Source: Alphaproteobacteria bacterium (lineage in GTDB: Bacteria > Pseudomonadota > Alphaproteobacteria > Rhodobacterales > Rhodobacteraceae). From it: a stretch of 37,859 nt of DNA. The translations under genes were made by a program, and so were the position numbers. Shown here in pieces: positions 13,091 through 30,461 of the stretch. The stretch lies in NCBI GenBank assembly GCA_030424645.1, contig JAUHWP010000018.1, positions 1-37,859 on the forward strand, given 5' to 3'. How positions within the stretch are numbered: position 1 is the first letter of the stretch; each line of letters begins with the position of its first letter. The notes below the pieces were generated by a model. That model was given only the letters and a program-made list of their open reading frames with translations, was not told the origin of the DNA and ran no database searches.

Positions 13091-13117
13091 CGCGGTGAAC
13101 CGTGACGGTTCACCGCG
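13091..13117. repeat. 27-base near-perfect palindrome after the secretion operon
   Basis: Arms of 13 bases beginning CGCGGTGAACCG read as an inverted repeat around a single central base. As RNA this gives a 12-bp stem with a three-base loop. It lies 19 bases beyond the stop of the membrane fusion protein (minus strand) and about 95 bases upstream of the amino acid binding-protein start. It is probably the terminator or 3'-end hairpin of the secretion operon. The lack of a T tract leaves an operator role for the downstream operon open. Confidence 0.6.
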
Positions 13118-13135: not shown

Positions 13136-14431
13136 TCATTCTTCGCGGAAGGCCAGATCGAGGTAATCGGTGAAGGGCTTCAGCAGATAAGATGCCGGGC
13201 TTTGTGCGCCGGTCTGGATGAACGCCTCAACCGGCATACCGGGTATGATCTCGTTCTCGCCCAAGAGGTCGAAGGCGGCGGGGTCGATTTCGACCTCGCC
13301 CGCAAAGTATCGCTGCCCGGTTTGCTCGTCCTGAATTGCATCTGCCGAAATCAGGCTGATCTGCCCCGATACTTCAGGCGTGGTACGCGCGTTGAACGCC
13401 GGGAACTTCAGCACCGCGTCCTGCCCGACAGTCACCCGGTCGATCTCGGTCGGGGCCAGTTGCACCGACACGATCAGCGGGCTGTCGTCCGGCACGATGG
13501 CCGCCACTTCGCCACCGGCGGGCACAACGGACCCGACAGTGAACACGGTCATGCCATAGACCACACCAGTCACCGGGGCCTTCAGGTTCAGCCGCGACAG
13601 GCGGGTTTCGACGGCGCGCAGTTTCTCCTGCAACTCGGCCTCGCGCGGTTGCAGGTTGCGGATTTCTTCCTGCGCGCTTTCCTGCCGTTCCGAGCGGGCT
13701 TTCAACCGCTCGATCTCATACCCTGCAATGGCGTTTCTTGTGGCCGCGATCTGGGCCTCGGTTTCGCCGGTCAGGCCGTTGATCTGGGCCACTTGTTTTT
13801 GCAGGTCCAGAACCTGTGACCGTTCGGTCAGGTTCTTGTTCAGAAGGTCCTGAAAGGTCTTCAGATTGTTGTCCAGAAGCTCTGCCTGCTCGCGATTGGC
13901 GGCAAGCTGCTTTTCCAGCCCGACGATCGACGCTTCCGATTGCGCACGGCGTTCGCGCAACTGGTCATCGGTCTGGCTCAGGGTCTTGCGGCGCGTGTCG
14001 AACAGGGTCTGCTGGGTGTCCAGGATCCCTTGCAGGTCGGCACTCCCCTCGGCCTTTTCCCGCAGGTCCGGGCGGAAGGTGATCTGCCCGGCTTCGACCG
14101 CTTCGGCGGACAGGCGGTCGATATTGGCCTGCACTTCGAACAGGGCGTGGCTGATGATGTTCTGCTCCGATTGCAGTTCGGCGTCGTCCAGCAGGATGAT
14201 CGTTTCACCCGCCCGGATCGTATCGCCGTTGCGCACCAGAATGTCGGCCACGACGCCGCCATCCGGGTGCTGCACCACCTGCTTGCGCTGGTCCACCTCG
14301 ACATAGCCCGATGCGACCACGGCGGCATTGATGGTGGAATAGGCCCCCCAGGCGGCAAGCCCGCCAAACCCGATTGCAAGCGCCCACAAACCTTGTGCGA
14401 CATATGTTTTAGCGTTCCAGTCACTGGGCAT
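13136..14431 (-). CDS. type I secretion membrane fusion protein (HlyD/PrtE family)
   Basis: This 431-residue protein has one N-terminal membrane span (about residues 13-31). It is followed by a split lipoyl-like domain (GYVEVDQRKQVVQHPDGGVV, GDTIRAGETIILLDDAEL), a long coiled-coil stretch (about 90-280) and a beta-rich C-terminal part. This is the layout of HlyD/PrtE periplasmic adaptors that link an inner-membrane ABC exporter to TolC. ATG 14431 is supported by GGAGG 7 bases upstream. The start overlaps the end of the ABC gene by 11 bases, so the two are co-translated. No outer membrane channel or RTX-type substrate gene is nearby. Confidence 0.92.
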   Translation of the reverse strand: MPSDWNAKTYVAQGLWALAIGFGGLAAWGAYSTINAAVVASGYVEVDQRKQVVQHPDGGVVADILVRNGDTIRAGETIILLDDAELQSEQNIISHALFEVQANIDRLSAEAVEAGQITFRPDLREKAEGSADLQGILDTQQTLFDTRRKTLSQTDDQLRERRAQSEASIVGLEKQLAANREQAELLDNNLKTFQDLLNKNLTERSQVLDLQKQVAQINGLTGETEAQIAATRNAIAGYEIERLKARSERQESAQEEIRNLQPREAELQEKLRAVETRLSRLNLKAPVTGVVYGMTVFTVGSVVPAGGEVAAIVPDDSPLIVSVQLAPTEIDRVTVGQDAVLKFPAFNARTTPEVSGQISLISADAIQDEQTGQRYFAGEVEIDPAAFDLLGENEIIPGMPVEAFIQTGAQSPASYLLKPFTDYLDLAFREE

Positions 14432-16160
14432 GTTCAAGCCTCCGGCCGTGTTGTGCCGGCACGACGGCCGGGCCTTTTCTGACGAATTTATCCAGAACAT
14501 CCTGACGTGGCCCGAAGGCGCGCATCTTGCCGTTGTCGATCAGAAGCACGCGTTCACACTGTGCCAGCGCCGAGGGGCGGTGCGAGATGATCAGCACCGC
14601 CTGACCGGCCGCCTTGGCGTCCGATATCGCTTGGTTGAGCGAGCGCACACCGCCATCGTCAAGGCTGGAGTTCGGTTCGTCCAGGATCAGGACGGCGGGG
14701 TCTCCGAACAGGGCGCGCGCAAGGCCCACACGTTGCCGCTGCCCCCCCGACAGGCGACTGCCCCCGTCGGTGATCACCGTGTCGTAACCGTTGGGCAGGC
14801 TCAGGATCAGGTCATGCGCGCCGGCAGCGCGGGCCGCCTTGACGATCAGTTCCGGGTCGGCTTCCGGGTCGAACCGTGCCACGTTTTGCGCGATCGTGCC
14901 GGGAAACAGCACCACGTCCTGCGGCAGATATCCCAGAAGGCGGCCAAGACGGTCGGGCGCGTATTGGTGAAGGTCGGCGCCGCCCAGCCGGATTTCCCCG
15001 GTGCGCGGGGGCCAGACCCCGGTCAGGGCTTTGGCCAAAGTGGATTTCCCCGCCGCGCTTGGCCCGATGACGGCCACCGCTTCGCCGGGCTGGATGTCGA
15101 AACTGACACCCAGCAGCAGGGGTTTTGCGGCCCCCGTCGGCGCCACGGAAAGGCCTTTGACCTCCATCCGGCTTTCGGGGGCGGGCAACGGCATGACCTC
15201 GGGCCGGGGCGGGGTTGTGGTCAGGATGTCGCGCAGCGACCGCCACCCCTGGGCTGCCGCCTGAAACACACCCCATTGCGCGACGGATTGTTCGACCGGG
15301 GCCAGCGCCCGTCCCAGCAGGATCGACCCGGCAATCATCGCGCCGGGGGTCAGTTCGCCGCGCAAGACCAGCCACGCGCCCAAGGCAAGGATGCCGGACT
15401 GCAACAGCAGGCGGAAGGCCTTGGTTGCGGCGGCCAGCCGCCCGCGCTTGTCGGCGGCAAAGATGCGGCTTTTCAAGGCGTCACGCCGCACATCGCCCCA
15501 GCTGTCGGCCAGCGGCTCTTTCATCCCAAGCCCCTGAACCGTTTCGATGGATTTACGCATGTAATCGGTGCGCCCGTCGGCTTGGGCCGCCAACTGACCG
15601 GCTTCAGCCTGTGCAGCGCTTGTGACGCGTTGATTGGCAAAGGCCAGGATGAACAGAACCACCCCGCCCGCCAGGGCGAACCAGCCCATCATCGGGTGAA
15701 AGATGAACAGCAGCGCCAGAAAGGCAGGGGCCCAGGGCAGGTCGATCAGCGCCGTCAATGCCGGAGAGGCCAGCAGCGATTGAATGCTTGTCAGATCGCG
15801 CAGCCCGGTCGCTGGGCGCGCGCGCTGATCGGCATTTTCGGCCTGTCGCAGCACGGCATCGAAGACGCGCCGGTCAAGCGCCGACTGAAATCCCGCGCCG
15901 ACGCGCGCCAGCACACGTCCCCGCACATGATCCAAAAAGCCCATCAGGGTGTAAAGAAACACCACAAGGCCGAACAGGGCCACCAGCGTTGCCGAGGATC
16001 GGCTGGACAGCACCCGGTCATAGACCTGTAACATGAACAGCGGACCGGTCAGCATCAGCAGATTGACCGCCGCACTGAATATGGCGACGCCGATAAGTTC
16101 GTATCGGAACCCCGCCAAGGTGCGGCTGAGTTCGCGGGAAGGGTGTCTTGGATCGGTCAT
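14421..16160 (-). CDS. type I secretion ABC transporter/permease (PrtD family)
   Basis: This 579-residue protein fuses a six-span export domain (about 1-310) to an ATPase. The ATPase has Walker [10 protein letters not shown] (366-374), signature LSGGQRQRV (470-478), Walker [13 protein letters not shown] with Glu495, and the switch His in [11 protein letters not shown]. The lack of an N-terminal peptidase C39 domain and the length fit PrtD/AprD-type exporters, which secrete unprocessed proteins with C-terminal signals such as RTX proteases or adhesins. ATG 16160 is chosen because GGAGCGG lies just upstream; Met at 16184 and GTG at 16217 are alternatives. The cargo is not encoded in the window. 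Confidence 0.92.
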
Positions 16161-16731
16161 TTCCGCTCCGTTTTGGTCAGGCATGGCAGCAGGCGTGCCG
16201 CTTGGATCGCGCGACACACCGTTGATGGGATCGGAAACGGTCGGGGGGCGGGTGCCGAAGGCGATGCCTTGCCAGCAGACCCCTTGTGGTCATCTGTTTC
16301 CGTGAGTGGTCGGGGCTAAAAAGGGTGAAAACCGACCGAGGGGGAGTCTTCCTGGCCGGGTAGGGCCTGTTGGGCGGTCCCGCGCTTATTTCCGGCGTGG
16401 GCGTCGGCAATCTTGTGCCCATGGGCGCATACGCGCAGAGGTGGAACCGGAATCCGCCCAGTCCTTCGGCCTGAAACGGTGCAAAACCGCCTATGCCGAA
16501 GGCTCGGCGGTGGAGGTTTCGAAGCAGTGGGGGTGAGTCGGTCTGCCGTGCGGAGGGCTGGCACGCCGCGCGCCCGCCCGTTTCGCGGGCGTTTTCAGCC
16601 TCCGGATTGTCAGGCTTCGGTGCGTCGGGTGCTGGTCATTGCGGCGGGTGTGGTCTTATGGTCAGACCATTGCAGAACGCCGCGTGATGGTCGCGCGGCA
16701 GTCAGGACGTTCAGGGAAGGCAGTTCCGTCG
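16161..16731. other. 571-bp gene-poor region with orphan terminator
   Basis: I see no convincing protein gene on either strand here: the open frames are short, overlap one another and resemble nothing known. The stretch holds several self-complementary segments, such as TTCCGG near 16390 with CCGGAA near 16447, and ACCGCC with GGCGGT near 16487-16513. It also holds a rightward terminator at 16571-16595. A non-coding RNA on the plus strand, ending at that terminator, is the most economical reading. Promoters for the secretion operon (leftward) and the phosphatase (rightward) must also lie here. Confidence 0.4.
16571..16595 (+). terminator. rho-independent terminator without an obvious upstream gene
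   Basis: CGCCCGC (16571-16577) and GCGGGCG (16585-16591) form a 7-bp GC stem with a 7-base loop, followed by TTTT. The T run is on the plus strand only. The nearest upstream gene is transcribed away from it, so the transcript it ends is unexplained. Confidence 0.65.
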
Positions 16732-17493
16732 ATGCGCTGGTTGACCCGCCGAAACCGAAACAAGCCCGTCATGGGCACGGCTGCCGTCGATACACCTGTG
16801 CAGCCGGACGGGTCGTTCTGCGTGATTGGCGATATTCATGGACGCATGGACCTGTTGTCCGGTGCCCTTGCGCGGATCGCGGCAGATTGTCCGGGTCGGC
16901 CTGTCGTCTTTGTCGGCGATTACATTGATCGCGGGCCTGACAGCGCTGAGGTGCTGCGCAAGCTCTTTGCCCTTCACTCTGCCGATCCGGGCAGGTTTGT
17001 CTGCCTGATGGGCAACCACGAAGACATGATGCTGGGGTTTCTGGACGATACATTACGCGACCCTCGTATCTGGTTGCAAAACGGGGCTGAGGCGACGCTG
17101 CGAAGCTTCGGGGTGTCCTGTCCTTCCGGTGCGACCGCGGCGAAGGGGATCGGGCAGACACGTGCCGGGCTGGCACATGCGATGGGAAACGATCTTGTGG
17201 CGTGGCTGCGTGCGCGGCCATTGGCCTGGCAGTCCGGCAATGTCTGGGTGACACATGCAGGCGCGGACCCTCTTGTCGACATGGGCCGGCAGGATCGCGC
17301 CGCGCTGCTTTGGGGGCACCCCGATTTCCGCAGGATAAGGCGGTCCGACGGTCGATGGGTCGTGCATGGGCATACCATTGTGCCACGGGTTCAGATCGCT
17401 GACGGGCGCGTCGCCATCGACACCGGTGCCTATCGCACCGGGCGGCTGTCAGTTGTGCACATATCGGGTGATGGTATAGATATCCTGGCCTGA
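16732..17493 (+). CDS. PPP-family metallophosphatase (serine/threonine phosphatase-like)
   Basis: This 253-residue protein has every metal-binding block of the PPP phosphoesterases: GDIHG (33-37), GDYIDRG (62-68), GNHED (94-98), THAG and HGHT. Bacterial members include PrpA/PrpB-type protein phosphatases and ApaH-like Np4N hydrolases; the small size favours the bacterial PrpA-like group. It presumably acts in the cytoplasm with two metal ions. ATG at 16732 is preferred because GGAAGG lies about 11 bases upstream and the N-terminus before GDIHG is then of moderate length; ATG 16687 is an alternative. No kinase or obvious partner is adjacent. Confidence 0.87.
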
Positions 17494-17623: not shown

Positions 17624-18355
17624 ATGAGCCCTGACCAAGACAACGCCAGCCGCACGCCGATCTACCGGATGGAGGAACTGACCAAGACCTACCGGACCGA
17701 GGCGGTCGAGGTGCACGCCTTGCGTGGCGTCACTGCCGAGCTTCCGGCAGGCGAGATCATCGTGCTTCTGGGGGCCTCGGGGTCGGGCAAATCCACGCTT
17801 CTGAATATTCTGGGCGGGCTGGACACCGCCACATCGGGCAAGGCGTGGTTTCGCGAACAGGAGCTGACCACCAGGTCCGACCGCGAGCTGACCCGCTATC
17901 GGCGCGACCACGTGGGGTTCGTGTTCCAGTTCTATAATCTTGTCCCGTCGCTGACCGCGCGGGAAAACGTGGCGCTCGTGACCGAGATTTCGACCCATCC
18001 CATGCCGCCCGAAGAGGCGCTGGAACGTGTCGGCCTTGGCCACCGCATGGATCATTTCCCGGCCGAGATGTCAGGGGGCGAACAGCAACGGGTCGCCATT
18101 GCCCGCGCCATCGCAAAACGACCCGAGGTCCTGTTGTGCGACGAACCGACCGGCGCGCTGGACAGCAAGACCGGTGTTCAGGTGCTGGAAGCGCTGCACA
18201 AGATCAACACCGAGCTTGGCACTTCGACGCTGGTGATCACGCACAACGCGGGCATTCAGGCGATGGCGCACCGGGTTGTATTCTTCGCGGACGGCACCAT
18301 CACCGAGATTCGCCAGAACGCCGACCGGATCGAACCGACCGAGATCGTGTGGTAG
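17624..18355 (+). CDS. ABC exporter ATP-binding protein (MacB/LolD type)
   Basis: This 243-residue ATPase has Walker [10 protein letters not shown], the typical LolD/MacB stretch [20 protein letters not shown], signature [15 protein letters not shown], Walker [13 protein letters not shown] and the switch His in VITHNAG. This group powers mechanotransmission-type exporters rather than importers. ATG 17624 follows a weak AAGAAG. The permease gene starts two bases after the stop, and a membrane fusion gene follows. The three make a tripartite exporter of the MacAB or DevBCA kind. The substrate is unknown. Confidence 0.92.
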
Positions 18356-18357
18356 CC

Positions 18358-20721
18358 ATGCGGGTTCTGGATCGAAAACTGCTTCGCGATCTCAGGCGGC
18401 TTTGGACACAAAGCCTGGCCATCTCGGCGGTGCTGGCGGTCGGGGTCATGATCATGGTCATGTCCAACGGTGCCGAACGCAGCCTGCGTGAAACCCGCGA
18501 TACCTTTTACGAACGCAATCGGTTCGGCGACCTGTTCGCCAGCGCCTCGCGCGCGCCGAACGCGCTGGCGGCGGATATCCTGTCGATTGATGGTGTAACC
18601 CGGGTGGACACGCGCATTTCCGATTTCGCCATTCTGGACATTGCGGATATGTCGGAACCCGCTGTGGGGCAGGTCTTGTCACTGCCGGCATCGGGCCTGC
18701 CTGCGATGAACATCCCGACCATCACCAAGGGCCGTATGCCGGAACCCGGACGGCGCGACGAGGTGTTGGTGAACCAGAATTTCGCGGATGCGCACGGGTT
18801 TTCGCCGGGGGACCGGTTCGGTGTCACCTTGAACGGGCAGAAGCGGGACCTGATAATCACCGGCACCGCGCTCAGCCCCGAGTTCATTTACACGATCGGC
18901 CCGAATTCGATCATGCCCGACGACCGGCGTTTCGGCATCCTGTGGATGGCCGAGGATGTTCTGGGCGCGGCCTTCAACCTGACCGGGGCGTTCAACGCGG
19001 TGTCGGTTCAACTGGATCGCGATGCCGACCCGGACGCCGTGACCGATACGCTGGACAAGGTGCTGAAGCCCTATGGCGGCACCGGGGCCTATCCGCGCAA
19101 GGACCAGATCTCGAACGCCTTTCTGGATGGCGAGTTGACGCAACTGGGCGTCATGGCCGAAGTCGTGCCGCCAATCTTCCTTGTGATCTCGGCCTTTCTT
19201 GTGAACATGGTGCTGGGGCGGCTGATCGCGTTGGAACGTGAACAGATCGGGCTTCTGAAGGCGCTGGGCTATCACCGGGCCGAGATCAGCTGGCATTACA
19301 TCAAGCTGGCGCTGGTGATCGGCTGTGTCGGCGTGGCGCTTGGCTGGGGGTTCGGTATGCTGGCCAGCCACGGCATGGCCCAGCTTTATGCCGAGTTCTT
19401 TCATTTTCCCTATCTGGTCTTTGTGCAGTATCCGTCGGTCTATGCCATCTCTGCCGGGGCGGGGCTTCTGGCGGCGGGGCTTGGCGCGATCAGCGCGGTG
19501 CGGCGGGTGGTCGGGCTAAGCCCCGCGGTGGCCATGGCGCCGCCTGCGCCGACTCGGTTTCGTCGCGGATTGCTGGACCACCTGATAGTGTGGTTGAAAC
19601 CGCGCCAGCCCACGATGATGATCCTGCGCGCCATCGGCCGCTGGCCGGTCAGGGCCGGGCTGACGACACTTGGGATCGCAACATCAGCCTCGGTCATGAT
19701 TGCCGCATTGTTCATGTTCGACGCGATGGACGAGCTTTTGGATGTGAGCTTTGTCCAGATCAACCGGCAGGATGCGATCGTGCAATTTGCCGCGCAACGG
19801 TCCGAAGACGTGCTGGAAGATGTGGCCAACCTGCCCGGCGTCATGGCCGCCGAGGGCGTATGGGCCATGCCCGCGCGGCTGACCAACGGGCATCTGACCC
19901 GGCGCATCGCAATCGAAGGACGTCGGCCCGAGGACAGCCTGTCCCGGGTCTTTGACACGGAAACAAACCTGCTGGTGCGCCCCGAGCACGGCATCGTCCT
20001 GGCCCGCCGTCTTGCCGATCATCTGAACGTCGGGGTCGGGGACGAATTGACGGTCGAGTTTCTGACGATCCCGGACAGTCAGCACAGGCTGACGGTCACG
20101 GGGCTGGCCGGGCAGTATTTCGGGCTGGGTGCCTATATGAATGCCGAAACCCTGGCGCGTCTTGTGGATCGGCCGGTGCAGGTCACACAAGCCAATCTGC
20201 TGATTGACGCCGCGCAGGAGGACAGGCTTTTCGAAACCATCAAAGCGGCACCGGCGGTGGCCGGGCTGACCTTGCTTTCTCAGGTGCGACAATCCTTTAA
20301 CGATACGATTGCCCAGAATGCGGGCATGACCACCACGATCAACTCGTTCCTCGCGGCGCTGATTGCCATCGGTGTGGTCTATAACTCGGCCCGTATCCAA
20401 CTGTCCGAGCGGGCGCGCGAACTGGCCAGCCTGCGCATCCTCGGGTTCACCCGGGGCGAGGTCAGTTATATCCTGCTGGGCGAGCTTTTCCTGCTGACCG
20501 CCGCTGCGATCCCCCTGGGTCTGGTGATCGGTCGGCTTCTGGCCGGGGCGATGGTGGCGAGTTTCGACAGCGATCTGTATTCCATCCCGCTGGTGGTGTC
20601 GCGGGGCACCTATATGTGGGCGGCGGGTGTGGTGGCCGTGGCATCGGTCGTGTCGGCGATGATCGTGCGGCGGCGGATCGACCGGATGGATCTGGTCGCC
20701 GTCATGAAGACAAGGGAGTAA
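18358..20721 (+). CDS. ABC exporter permease with two FtsX-type domains
   Basis: This 787-residue membrane protein has an N-terminal span (about residues 19-36) followed by a large periplasmic domain. Three spans follow near 260-385 (VPPIFLVISAFLVNMVLGRL and onward), then a second soluble domain and a C-terminal FtsX set (TTINSFLAALIAIGVVYNSA, LGELFLLTAAAIPLGLVIG). Duplicated FtsX modules of this size occur in DevC-like or lipoprotein-type exporters. The start at 18358 is chosen because the ATPase gene ends two bases before it; the frame is open further upstream but only as an overlap with the ATPase gene. The membrane fusion gene follows four bases after its stop. Confidence 0.9.
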   Translation: MRVLDRKLLRDLRRLWTQSLAISAVLAVGVMIMVMSNGAERSLRETRDTFYERNRFGDLFASASRAPNALAADILSIDGVTRVDTRISDFAILDIADMSEPAVGQVLSLPASGLPAMNIPTITKGRMPEPGRRDEVLVNQNFADAHGFSPGDRFGVTLNGQKRDLIITGTALSPEFIYTIGPNSIMPDDRRFGILWMAEDVLGAAFNLTGAFNAVSVQLDRDADPDAVTDTLDKVLKPYGGTGAYPRKDQISNAFLDGELTQLGVMAEVVPPIFLVISAFLVNMVLGRLIALEREQIGLLKALGYHRAEISWHYIKLALVIGCVGVALGWGFGMLASHGMAQLYAEFFHFPYLVFVQYPSVYAISAGAGLLAAGLGAISAVRRVVGLSPAVAMAPPAPTRFRRGLLDHLIVWLKPRQPTMMILRAIGRWPVRAGLTTLGIATSASVMIAALFMFDAMDELLDVSFVQINRQDAIVQFAAQRSEDVLEDVANLPGVMAAEGVWAMPARLTNGHLTRRIAIEGRRPEDSLSRVFDTETNLLVRPEHGIVLARRLADHLNVGVGDELTVEFLTIPDSQHRLTVTGLAGQYFGLGAYMNAETLARLVDRPVQVTQANLLIDAAQEDRLFETIKAAPAVAGLTLLSQVRQSFNDTIAQNAGMTTTINSFLAALIAIGVVYNSARIQLSERARELASLRILGFTRGEVSYILLGELFLLTAAAIPLGLVIGRLLAGAMVASFDSDLYSIPLVVSRGTYMWAAGVVAVASVVSAMIVRRRIDRMDLVAVMKTRE

Positions 20722-20725
20722 CCGG

Positions 20726-21940
20726 ATGAGCTGGAACATGCGCAACACGATATTGGCCGGGGTGGCCGTGGTCGCGGTGGCGGGCTTTGCCTATGTCGCG
20801 ACCAAACCGGAACCCGTTCCGGTCGATATTGCCACCATCGCGCAGGGACCGATCGAGGTGACGGTCAATGCCGAAGGGCGCACGCGCGTGCGTGATGTTT
20901 ACGACGTGTCCGCGCCCGTCGCGGGGCAGCTGGCGCGCAGCCCGGTGGCAATCGGGGACATGGTGACGGCGGGCGAAACCATCGTGGCCCGAATCGCACC
21001 GGGCGATCCGGCGTTTCTGGACGTGCGCTCGCGGGCGCAGGCCGAAGCGGCGGTGGCGCAGGCCACGGCAGCGGTATCGGTGGCAGAAGCGCAGATTTCA
21101 ATGGCCGAGGCTGACCTTGCCCACGCACAGACCATCCTGAACCGTCTGCACGACCTGCATTCGCGCGGCACCATCCCGCAGGCACAGCTTGAGGATGCCG
21201 AACTGGGGGTCGACGTGGCGGCGGCACAGCTGGACAGTGCGCACGCGGCCTATGACATGCGGGTGGCCGAGCTTGCCGCGCAGAAGGCCACGCTGATCGA
21301 ACCGCGCGATCAGGACACCGCCGGTCAGGGTGACGCCTGCTGCATCGACGTGAAAGCGCCGGTGTCAGGCAAGGTTCTGACCGTGGTCAATGAAAGTGCC
21401 CGCCCGGTTCTGTCAGGCGCGCCGATCCTGTCCATCGGTGAAACTGATGATCTTGAGATCACGGCGGAAATCCTGTCCACCGATGCCGTGCGCCTGTCGC
21501 CCGGTGCCGTGGCCTATGTCGACAGGTGGGGCGGTGACGGTGCACTGGAGGCGCGCGTTCGGGTGATCGAACCCGCAGGGTTCACCAAGGTATCCGCCCT
21601 TGGCATCGAAGAACAGCGCGTGCGCGTCGTGCTGGACCTTCTGACCCCCAAGGAAGACCGCGCCGCGCTGGGCCATGGGTTCCGCACCTTTCTGCGGATC
21701 GTCGAATGGCAGGGCGAGGGGGTGATCGTGCCCCTGTCGGCGCTGTTCCGCGATGGCACGGACTGGGCGGTCTTTGTTGTCGAAGGGGACTATGTGGCCT
21801 TGCGCAAGGTCGAGCTGGGGCAGCGCAACAGCGACGAGGCGGTGGCGTTGTCCGGTCTTGCCGAAGGCGAACAGGTTGTCACCCATCCGGGCGACCGCGT
21901 GGCGGACGGGGTGCTGGTGGTGGATCGCACCACGCTTTAG
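20726..21940 (+). CDS. periplasmic adaptor of ABC exporter (HlyD/MacA-like membrane fusion protein)
   Basis: This 404-residue protein has a single N-terminal span (about 8-26). The lipoyl-like halves are VSAPVAGQLARSPVAIGDMV and VKAPVSGKVLTVVNES, separated by an alanine-rich coiled-coil hairpin (about 90-195). A beta-barrel and a membrane-proximal region complete the adaptor. An unusual DACCID sits just before the second half-motif. GGGAG precedes the ATG by about 8 bases. It completes the ATPase-permease-adaptor operon; an outer membrane channel must come from elsewhere. Confidence 0.9.
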   Translation: MSWNMRNTILAGVAVVAVAGFAYVATKPEPVPVDIATIAQGPIEVTVNAEGRTRVRDVYDVSAPVAGQLARSPVAIGDMVTAGETIVARIAPGDPAFLDVRSRAQAEAAVAQATAAVSVAEAQISMAEADLAHAQTILNRLHDLHSRGTIPQAQLEDAELGVDVAAAQLDSAHAAYDMRVAELAAQKATLIEPRDQDTAGQGDACCIDVKAPVSGKVLTVVNESARPVLSGAPILSIGETDDLEITAEILSTDAVRLSPGAVAYVDRWGGDGALEARVRVIEPAGFTKVSALGIEEQRVRVVLDLLTPKEDRAALGHGFRTFLRIVEWQGEGVIVPLSALFRDGTDWAVFVVEGDYVALRKVELGQRNSDEAVALSGLAEGEQVVTHPGDRVADGVLVVDRTTL

Positions 21941-27246: not shown

Positions 27247-28101
27247 ATGGCGAAACTTCCTCCTTATGCAACGACGGGCCAGCGGATCTGGCATTATACC
27301 TTCCTGGTGATTTGTGGGCTGATCTTCTTCTTCCTGATTGCCCCGATTGCCGTGGTGATCCCGCTGAGCTTCAATTCGCAAAACTTCTTCACCTTCACCA
27401 AGGAGATGCTGAGTTTGGACCCCGACGGGTATTCGCTGAAGCACTATCGCGACTTCTTCTCGAACCCGGACTGGCAGAATGCCATGTGGAACTCGATCAA
27501 GATCGCGCCGGTGGCGACGGTGATCTCGGTGTCGCTGGGCACGCTGGCCGCGATCGGGCTGAGCCAGCCGCACGTCCCGGCCCGACGGGCGATCATGGCA
27601 ATCCTGATTTCGCCGATGATCGTGCCGCTGATCATCTCGGCGGCGGGCATGTATTTCTTCTATTCGAAGATCAACCTTGCAGGCACCTATTGGGGCGTTG
27701 TTCTGGCCCATGCGGCGCTGGGCATTCCCTTCGTGATCATCACGGTGACAGCGACGCTGGTTGGGTTCGATCGCTCACTGACGCGGGCTGCGGCGAATAT
27801 GGGGGCTGATCCCGTAACAACCTTCTTCCGGGTGCAAATGCCGCTGATCCTGCCGGGTGTGATCTCGGGCGCCCTGTTTGCCTTCATCACGTCCTTTGAC
27901 GAGGTGGTGGTGGTGATCTTTGTCGGGTCCGCCAAGCAACAAACGCTGCCGTGGCAGATGTTCACCGGCCTGCGCGAACAGATCAGCCCAACCATTCTGG
28001 CGGTGGCCACGATCCTTGTGGCTGTGTCGATCGTGCTGCTGACGATTGTCGAGCTTTTGCGCCGCCGTTCGGAACGGTTGCGCGGGATGAGCCCCGGCTG
28101 A
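27247..28101 (+). CDS. ABC importer permease, PotC-like
   Basis: This 284-residue permease has about six spans and the EAA loop RAAANMGADPVTTFFRVQMP continuing LILPGVISGALFAF. The length is typical for PotC. It pairs with the PotB-like subunit to form the channel of the creatinase-linked importer. A basic C-terminal tail (LLRRRSERLRGMSPG) fits the positive-inside rule. A rho-independent terminator follows 28 bases after the stop and closes the operon. Confidence 0.92.
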   Translation: MAKLPPYATTGQRIWHYTFLVICGLIFFFLIAPIAVVIPLSFNSQNFFTFTKEMLSLDPDGYSLKHYRDFFSNPDWQNAMWNSIKIAPVATVISVSLGTLAAIGLSQPHVPARRAIMAILISPMIVPLIISAAGMYFFYSKINLAGTYWGVVLAHAALGIPFVIITVTATLVGFDRSLTRAAANMGADPVTTFFRVQMPLILPGVISGALFAFITSFDEVVVVIFVGSAKQQTLPWQMFTGLREQISPTILAVATILVAVSIVLLTIVELLRRRSERLRGMSPG

Positions 28102-28129: not shown

Positions 28130-28153
28130 CGGCACCCTTTCGGGTGCCGTTTT
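28130..28153 (+). terminator. rho-independent terminator of the PotABCD-like operon
   Basis: CGGCACCC (28130-28137) and GGGTGCCG (28142-28149) pair around a TTTC loop and are followed by TTTT. This is a textbook intrinsic terminator between the importer operon and clpP. Confidence 0.85.
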
Positions 28154-29130: not shown

Positions 29131-30399
29131 ATGGCGAATAATTCTTCCGGCGACAGTAAAAACACACTTTATTGTTCGTTCTGCGGCAAAAGCCAACATG
29201 AGGTGCGAAAGCTGATTGCGGGCCCGACCGTGTTCATCTGCGACGAATGCGTCGAACTGTGCATGGACATCATTCGGGAAGAAACCAAGACCACGGGGCT
29301 GAAGGCCTCGGACGGGGTGCCGACCCCGATGGAGATTTGCCAGGTTCTGGATGACTACGTGATCGGTCAGGGCCATGCCAAGCGCGTGTTGTCCGTGGCG
29401 GTTCATAACCATTACAAGCGACTGAACCACGCCGCTGCCGCCGGGGACGAGATCGAACTGGCGAAGTCCAACATCATGCTGATCGGTCCCACGGGCTGCG
29501 GCAAGACGCTGCTGGCGCAAACGCTGGCCCGTATTCTGGATGTGCCGTTCACCATGGCCGATGCGACCACGCTGACCGAGGCGGGGTATGTCGGTGAAGA
29601 TGTAGAGAACATCATCCTGAAGCTGCTTCAGGCATCGGAATACAATGTCGAACGCGCGCAGCGCGGTATCGTCTATATCGACGAGGTCGACAAGATCACC
29701 CGCAAGTCGGACAATCCCTCGATCACCCGCGACGTGTCGGGCGAGGGCGTGCAGCAGGCACTTCTGAAGATCATGGAAGGCACCGTGGCCTCGGTTCCGC
29801 CGCAGGGTGGGCGCAAGCATCCGCAGCAGGAATTCCTGCAGGTCGACACGACCAACATCCTGTTCATCTGTGGCGGGGCGTTTGCGGGTCTGGACAAGAT
29901 CATCGCGCAGCGCGGCAAGGGGTCGGCCATGGGCTTCGGCGCCGATGTGCGTGAAAACGATGACCGGGGCGTGGGCGAGTTGTTTCAGGAATTGGAGCCG
30001 GAAGACCTGCTGAAATTCGGGCTGATCCCGGAATTTGTCGGCCGTTTGCCGGTGATCGCGACGCTGGAAGACCTCGATGCCGAAGCTCTGGTCACGATCC
30101 TGACCAAGCCCAAGAACGCTTTGGTCAAGCAATACCAGCGCCTGTTCGAACTGGAAGATGCGCAACTCAGCTTCACCGATGACGCGTTGAAGGCCATTGC
30201 CAAGCGTGCCATCGAACGCAAGACCGGCGCACGTGGCTTGCGCTCGATCATGGAAGACATCCTGCTGGATACCATGTTCGACCTGCCGGGGCTTGAGAAT
30301 GTCGATGAGGTCGTGGTGAATGAAGAGGCCGTGACCTCGGACGCCAAGCCGTTGATCATCTATGGCGAGGCTGCGAAGGAAGAGGTCAGCGCAAGCTGA
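29131..30399 (+). CDS. clpX: ATP-dependent Clp protease ATP-binding subunit ClpX
   Basis: This 422-residue AAA+ unfoldase has an N-terminal zinc-binding domain (C15, C18, C37, C40 in CSFCGK and CDECVELC). The AAA+ core has Walker A GPTGCGKT (119-126), Walker B VYIDEVDK (D184, E185), the pore-loop GYVGED and the RKH loop (GGRKHPQ). Sensor 2 is in GARGLRS. The ClpP-docking loop reads MGF in place of the common IGF. ATG at 29131 is preferred because AGGA lies 7 bases upstream; ATG 29128 directly before it is an alternative. It recognises and unfolds tagged substrates for ClpP. Confidence 0.97.
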
Positions 30400-30435: not shown

Positions 30436-30461
30436 AGCCACCGCCCGCGCGGTGGCTTTTT
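30436..30461 (+). terminator. rho-independent terminator of clpX
   Basis: AGCCACCGC (30436-30444) and GCGGTGGCT (30449-30457) pair around CCGC and run into TTTT. A perfect 9-bp stem with a T tract 37 bases after clpX makes this a strong intrinsic terminator. Confidence 0.88.

Follow-up and report, generated by a model that had tools for sequence, protein, structure and literature searches.

Orphan intrinsic terminators in intergenic regions serve as small-RNA markers in general annotation practice, and are often read as signposts of a transcript that ends there. A small RNA of a different setting is UpsM, which is reported to come from the long leader of the dcw cluster of R. sphaeroides (PMC5089854). 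We analysed a window of 37.9 kb, the whole stretch of DNA under study, located on contig C189 of a 3.24-Mb draft genome (G000, the source genome). A preliminary description had proposed a small RNA ending at an orphan terminator in this window. Among open-licence papers, judged by their titles, we found none on this locus. In the sequences compared here, the terminator is convincing yet appears to be species-specific, and the conserved sequence accompanies the adjacent operon, which is encoded on the opposite strand.

The terminator lies in the intergenic stretch 16161-16731, between a minus-strand PrtD-type exporter with its HlyD adaptor and a plus-strand phosphoesterase. The type I secretion ABC exporter (14421-16160) belongs to the PrtD subfamily, as its match to TIGR01842 (647.6 bits) exceeds the cut-off of 510.15; the conserved context proposes its start at 16160, an ATG after GGAGCGGA. 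The HlyD-type periplasmic adaptor is encoded at 13136-14500 on the same strand (TIGR01843, 344.1 bits; cut-off 208.65). The calcineurin-like phosphoesterase (PF00149), referred to below as the phosphatase, occupies 16732-17493 on the plus strand and has a conserved start, ATGCGCTGG. Downstream of the phosphatase, an ABC ATPase, a large permease and an RND/MacA-type adaptor stand in a row on the plus strand (17624-21940), the permease having a weak LolCE match of 37.8 bits, far under the cut-off. On the other side of the locus, an inverted repeat, GCGGTGAACCG-TGA-CGGTTCACCGC, is present at 13092-13116, in the gap that separates the hlyD end from the solute-binding gene. The synteny of this locus is conserved in six further genomes of the genus (G006, G007, G009, G011, G014 and G016).

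Upstream of the phosphatase, the alignment revealed a promoter-like pair on the plus strand, TGGTCA-N18-TATGGT (16633-16662). In the eight genomes compared, which include G012 (described below), CTGG and TA of this pair are invariant, the spacing is nearly constant, and TATG is found in six. It may well act as the phosphatase promoter. A scan of 16161-16731 for promoters of the sigma-70 type gave no match on either strand.

The orphan terminator itself spans 16575-16595 on the plus strand. It consists of a 6-bp GC stem with the loop TTTCG (CGCCCG-TTTCG-CGGGCG) and a TTTT tail; the stem runs from 16575 to 16591, our scan places the stem region at 16571-16591, and in an alternative fold 16570-16577 pairs with 16585-16592. 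The GC-rich stem leads directly into the U run, as in intrinsic terminators, with a T run just 4 long. The standard terminator scan did not list the site at 16575-16595 because it requires 5 T in 8, and the tail here has 4. We scored hairpin and tail together with a custom score, whose strict threshold was chosen after the score of this site was known; at this threshold, the whole 37.9 kb contains three sites on the plus strand and one on the minus strand. Dinucleotide shuffles of the whole window (n = 40) had a mean of 0.03 sites on one strand, and at most 1. When the 570-base intergenic stretch was shuffled (n = 1000), a fraction of 0.001 yielded a site above the strict threshold. The remaining two plus-strand sites, at 28130-28153 (29 bases past the permease end at 28101) and 30436-30461 (37 bases past the clpX end at 30399), both follow the ends of plus-strand genes, which indicates that the custom score picks credible terminators. 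As a sequence feature, the orphan plus-strand terminator is real, non-random and convincing. On this point the analysis agrees with the preliminary description, which had reported a good plus-strand terminator at 16571-16595 with no protein gene behind it; the nearest upstream gene, that of the PrtD-type exporter, indeed runs the opposite way.

Conservation in close relatives, on which that description had staked its proposal, does not hold for the terminator: a plus-strand hairpin comparable to it is absent from all six orthologous regions. As judged from these regions, the terminator is species- or lineage-specific. Weak terminator-like sites were observed on the plus strand of G009 (two, with hairpins of -5.1 and -6.1) and G014 (one, -5.7); the minus strand carries two terminator-like sites in G006 and one in G011. 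In G009, the hairpin of -6.1 abuts a promoter-like CTGGTC and was also picked up by the standard scan. These sites of the relatives were dropped as a common feature, since none is shared between genomes. The terminator-like hairpins with T runs in G006 (L092, near 2576) and G011 (L095, near 1370) lie on the exporter strand, in or beside the conserved array that is described below.

A conserved non-coding element, covered by our profile R1, spans 16292-16494 and is present once each in 7 of the 21 genus genomes; conserved blocks extend past it to about 16541 (no strand is assigned to the element or its blocks). Block A, CCGTGAGTGGTC (16300-16311), contains the longest run invariant across the seven genomes, 9 bases. 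The exact block occurs once each in five of the seven, always at this locus, and a one-mismatch variant takes its place in G006 and G007. Elsewhere in the seven genomes the exact block has no copy, which would be unusual for the site of a shared regulator. In G009 (L089, 2670-2705), two copies of block A stand 21 bases apart, the second with one mismatch. Block E, AAAAAGGGTGAAA (16318-16330), is diverged in G011 and G016. Block T (16371-16391) is a 6-pair dyad or hairpin (16371-16388) followed by TTT, with a weak plus-strand terminator-like shape, and its tail is TTTT or longer in five of the six relatives. The remaining blocks are block B, a dyad, TCGGCAATCTTGTGCC (16404-16419), the dyad-like block C, AAACGGTGCAAAACCGCCTA (16474-16493), diverged in G000 and G011, and the degenerate block D (16532-16541), which reads GGTGAGTCGG in G000 and GGTGAGTCGCC in G009 and G014. 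Three of the blocks, B, C and T, form short dyads resembling GGYR-N6-YGCC.

The spacing of the blocks is also kept. Blocks A and B lie 103-106 bases apart in all seven genomes, A and C 173-175 in the five genomes where the pattern recognises C (not G000 and G011), and A and D 232-236 in the six where D is recognised (not G016). The coding sequences around the array are much less constant. Four-fold sites agree between G000 and each of the six relatives at 0.46-0.57 in the first 300 exporter codons and at 0.38-0.47 in the phosphatase, and the four-fold columns invariant across all seven number just 14 of 128 in the former and 2 of 52 in the latter. So few invariant four-fold sites against a 9-base invariant run in block A point to selection, and not to recent shared descent.

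The stretch does not appear to encode a protein. Six-frame translation of the intergenic stretch from the seven genomes gave no reading frame open in all orthologues, in line with the earlier remark that no convincing open frame is present; protein-like minus-strand patches in G009 and G007 fail in the other genomes, and a hidden coding sequence was rejected. Two further candidates were discarded. A sigma-54 promoter at block B (a TGGCAC...TTGC look-alike) has a spacing one base short of the consensus. A genome-wide regulon for blocks B and C did not emerge: with a degenerate pattern, 6 of the 21 genomes yielded 7 matches in all (2 in the reversed control), and 4 of the 7 fall at this locus.

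We examined the distribution of the element with profile R1. All 21 genus genomes encode some PrtD-like protein, and the orthologue of this one is found in seven (86-100% identity; next best 52%). Each of these seven exporter-pair genomes has one strong match (127-154 bits) at the locus; as the profile was built from those seven sequences, these matches arise by construction, and absence elsewhere is the test. No strong match was found in the other 14 genomes, which include the incomplete G010 (56%) and G008 (87%); in these 14 the profile scored just two partial hits, at 17.7 and 19.4 bits. In the genus as a whole, weak matches number four (17.7-19.4 bits; G003, G009, G014 and G018). Under stricter filters, the search of 198 family genomes returned the source genome at 148 bits and partial matches in 29 others (17-21 bits, E 3.4e-4 to 0.01), which we take as chance. 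A search of 99 loci by nhmmer gave 10 strong matches, representing the seven genomes with three of them seen twice, and two more at E 0.25 and 0.59. A blastn search of 61 genomes missed G011 and G016 and is unfit as an absence test.

One genome shows the locus without the pair. G012 (L162) keeps the permease, the solute-binding gene, the phosphatase and the next ABC gene, and its solute-binding gene directly adjoins the phosphatase; neither HlyD nor the exporter is present there, the genome lacks the element, and the promoter-like pair is retained. In the seven genomes, the PrtD-HlyD pair and the element together separate the solute-binding gene from the phosphatase as one unit, and this unit is missing as a whole in G012. 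Since the element is found only alongside the exporter pair and the promoter-like pair is kept in G012, the array tracks the secretion pair, and the promoter-like pair tracks the phosphatase. G012 represents one event only, and few independent events underlie the joint absence of pair and element from the genomes other than the seven.

What might be transcribed from this stretch can be weighed against these observations. A small RNA of this species, read on the plus strand and ending at 16575-16595, would make use of a strong, non-random terminator that has no plus-strand gene before it, and of a stretch that is non-coding. The single sequence, however, folds in an ordinary manner. Compared to shuffled sequences, the plus strand gave z -0.33 for 16292-16600 and z -0.60 for 16480-16600, and so lacks the excess stability of a structured RNA; the several complementary segments reported earlier are present, but the folding energy across 16292-16600 is not beyond chance. 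The covariance search suggested in the preliminary description, against 6S RNA and other known families, found none of 4227 Rfam families in the window at gathering score, and two permissive searches gave one chance-level match each. With no sigma-70 match on the plus strand and with only the weak sites of G009 and G014 in place of a comparable terminator, we regard such a small RNA as unlikely. What stands of the original proposal is the convincing orphan terminator in a non-coding stretch that is partly under selection; the evidence lends no support to a conserved small RNA, and a plus-strand transcript ending at the terminator is possible. The terminator also lies upstream of the phosphatase on the same strand, as an attenuator in a long phosphatase leader would, but the conserved promoter-like pair between it and the gene, and its own lack of conservation, make attenuation very improbable.

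The conserved element could itself be an RNA, either a short plus-strand one of about 16300-16391, beginning around block A/E and ending at the T hairpin, or an extended, structured one covering T-B-C. The T, B and C stems stay paired on the plus strand mainly via G-U: read on this strand, their non-Watson-Crick cells comprise 25 G-U versus 3 others, a partly circular count, because the prediction of the stems used that strand. The changes in block T are likewise of the G-U type, except for one pair broken in G011 and G016. We take this bias as a hint of plus-strand RNA, and the conserved T residues after the T hairpin and the uniqueness of exact block A to the locus speak in the same direction. 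Consensus folding of the alignment was better than conservation-preserving shuffles on the plus strand, where none of 200 was as good (z -3.89); most of this came from the part between T and C (z -5.20, again none of 200), and the part from A to T alone was weak (13 of 200 shuffles as good on the plus strand, 73 of 200 on the minus). The minus strand also beats its shuffles (z -2.21, 2 of 200 as good; T to C, z -3.14, 1 of 200), as is expected of DNA dyads too. The stems are only 4-6 pairs long, none of the 16 T, B and C pairs has a two-sided change, and their covariation is not above shuffles, a comparison of low power with seven sequences. RNAalifold predicted 29 pairs on the plus strand with a covariation term of -1.07; the three pairs with two-sided change each have at least one broken cell as well, and all lie outside those 16. 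Dyad DNA sites would account for T, B and C about as well as RNA, and an RNA made from the element seems quite doubtful to us. Still less probable is a locus-specific non-coding RNA, divergent within 16292-16494, that travels with the PrtD-HlyD pair and controls it, and that is extended here to the terminator at 16575-16595. The structure may instead belong to the minus-strand mRNA, as a prtD-hlyD leader with hairpins before the ribosome site. A possible leader hairpin with a 10-bp stem and a 9-base loop precedes the exporter start (16192-16220, minus strand, though the strand is uncertain). It reaches z -2.4 to -2.8 in four of the seven genomes and is no better than shuffles in the other three, and the plus-strand fold of the segment is the more stable one in five of seven; being significant in just four and often more stable on the opposite strand, it was rejected as a conserved RNA. 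Two leader hairpins have 12 G-U versus 4 A-C cells on the minus strand by a hand count that is circular, as they were predicted on that strand. The minus-strand leader alignment has two-sided changes in 2 of 38 pairs, with an unfavourable covariation term of +0.32, and the whole exporter leader of the window is ordinary (z -0.41). We consider the leader reading unlikely.

As the probable and most economical explanation we favour a conserved divergent control region, in which the array serves the secretion operon on the minus strand and plus-strand transcription is halted by the lineage-specific terminator ahead of the phosphatase promoter. On this model, 16161-16731 would be the shared upstream region of the PrtD-HlyD pair on the minus strand and the phosphoesterase gene on the plus strand, and the block array (about 16300-16541) would regulate the secretion pair in cis, most likely as a set of DNA-binding sites together with a promoter and a leader. 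We infer that transcription factors bind these sites, and that a plus-strand transcript, starting in or beyond the array, ends at 16575-16595. The terminator would then keep this transcription out of the phosphatase promoter at 16633-16662, and thereby insulate it. If the array controls the PrtD-HlyD exporter, the search for its regulator in this marine genus can concentrate on a defined stretch of about 240 bases.

Compared to other upstream regions of PrtD/HlyD type I secretion genes, the element lies directly upstream of the pair and within the genus occurs only with it; the block array here comes without a named regulator, and the 197 other family genomes gave only the partial matches of 17-21 bits. 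With the orphan terminators that mark small RNAs, the present site shares a strong hairpin and U run without an upstream gene. It differs from them in that it is not conserved between species, its single sequence is no more structured than background, and it matches no known family. UpsM, from a related bacterium, is likewise an RNA encoded upstream of genes, and differs in that it is reported to be part of the leader of the genes downstream of it (PMC5089854).
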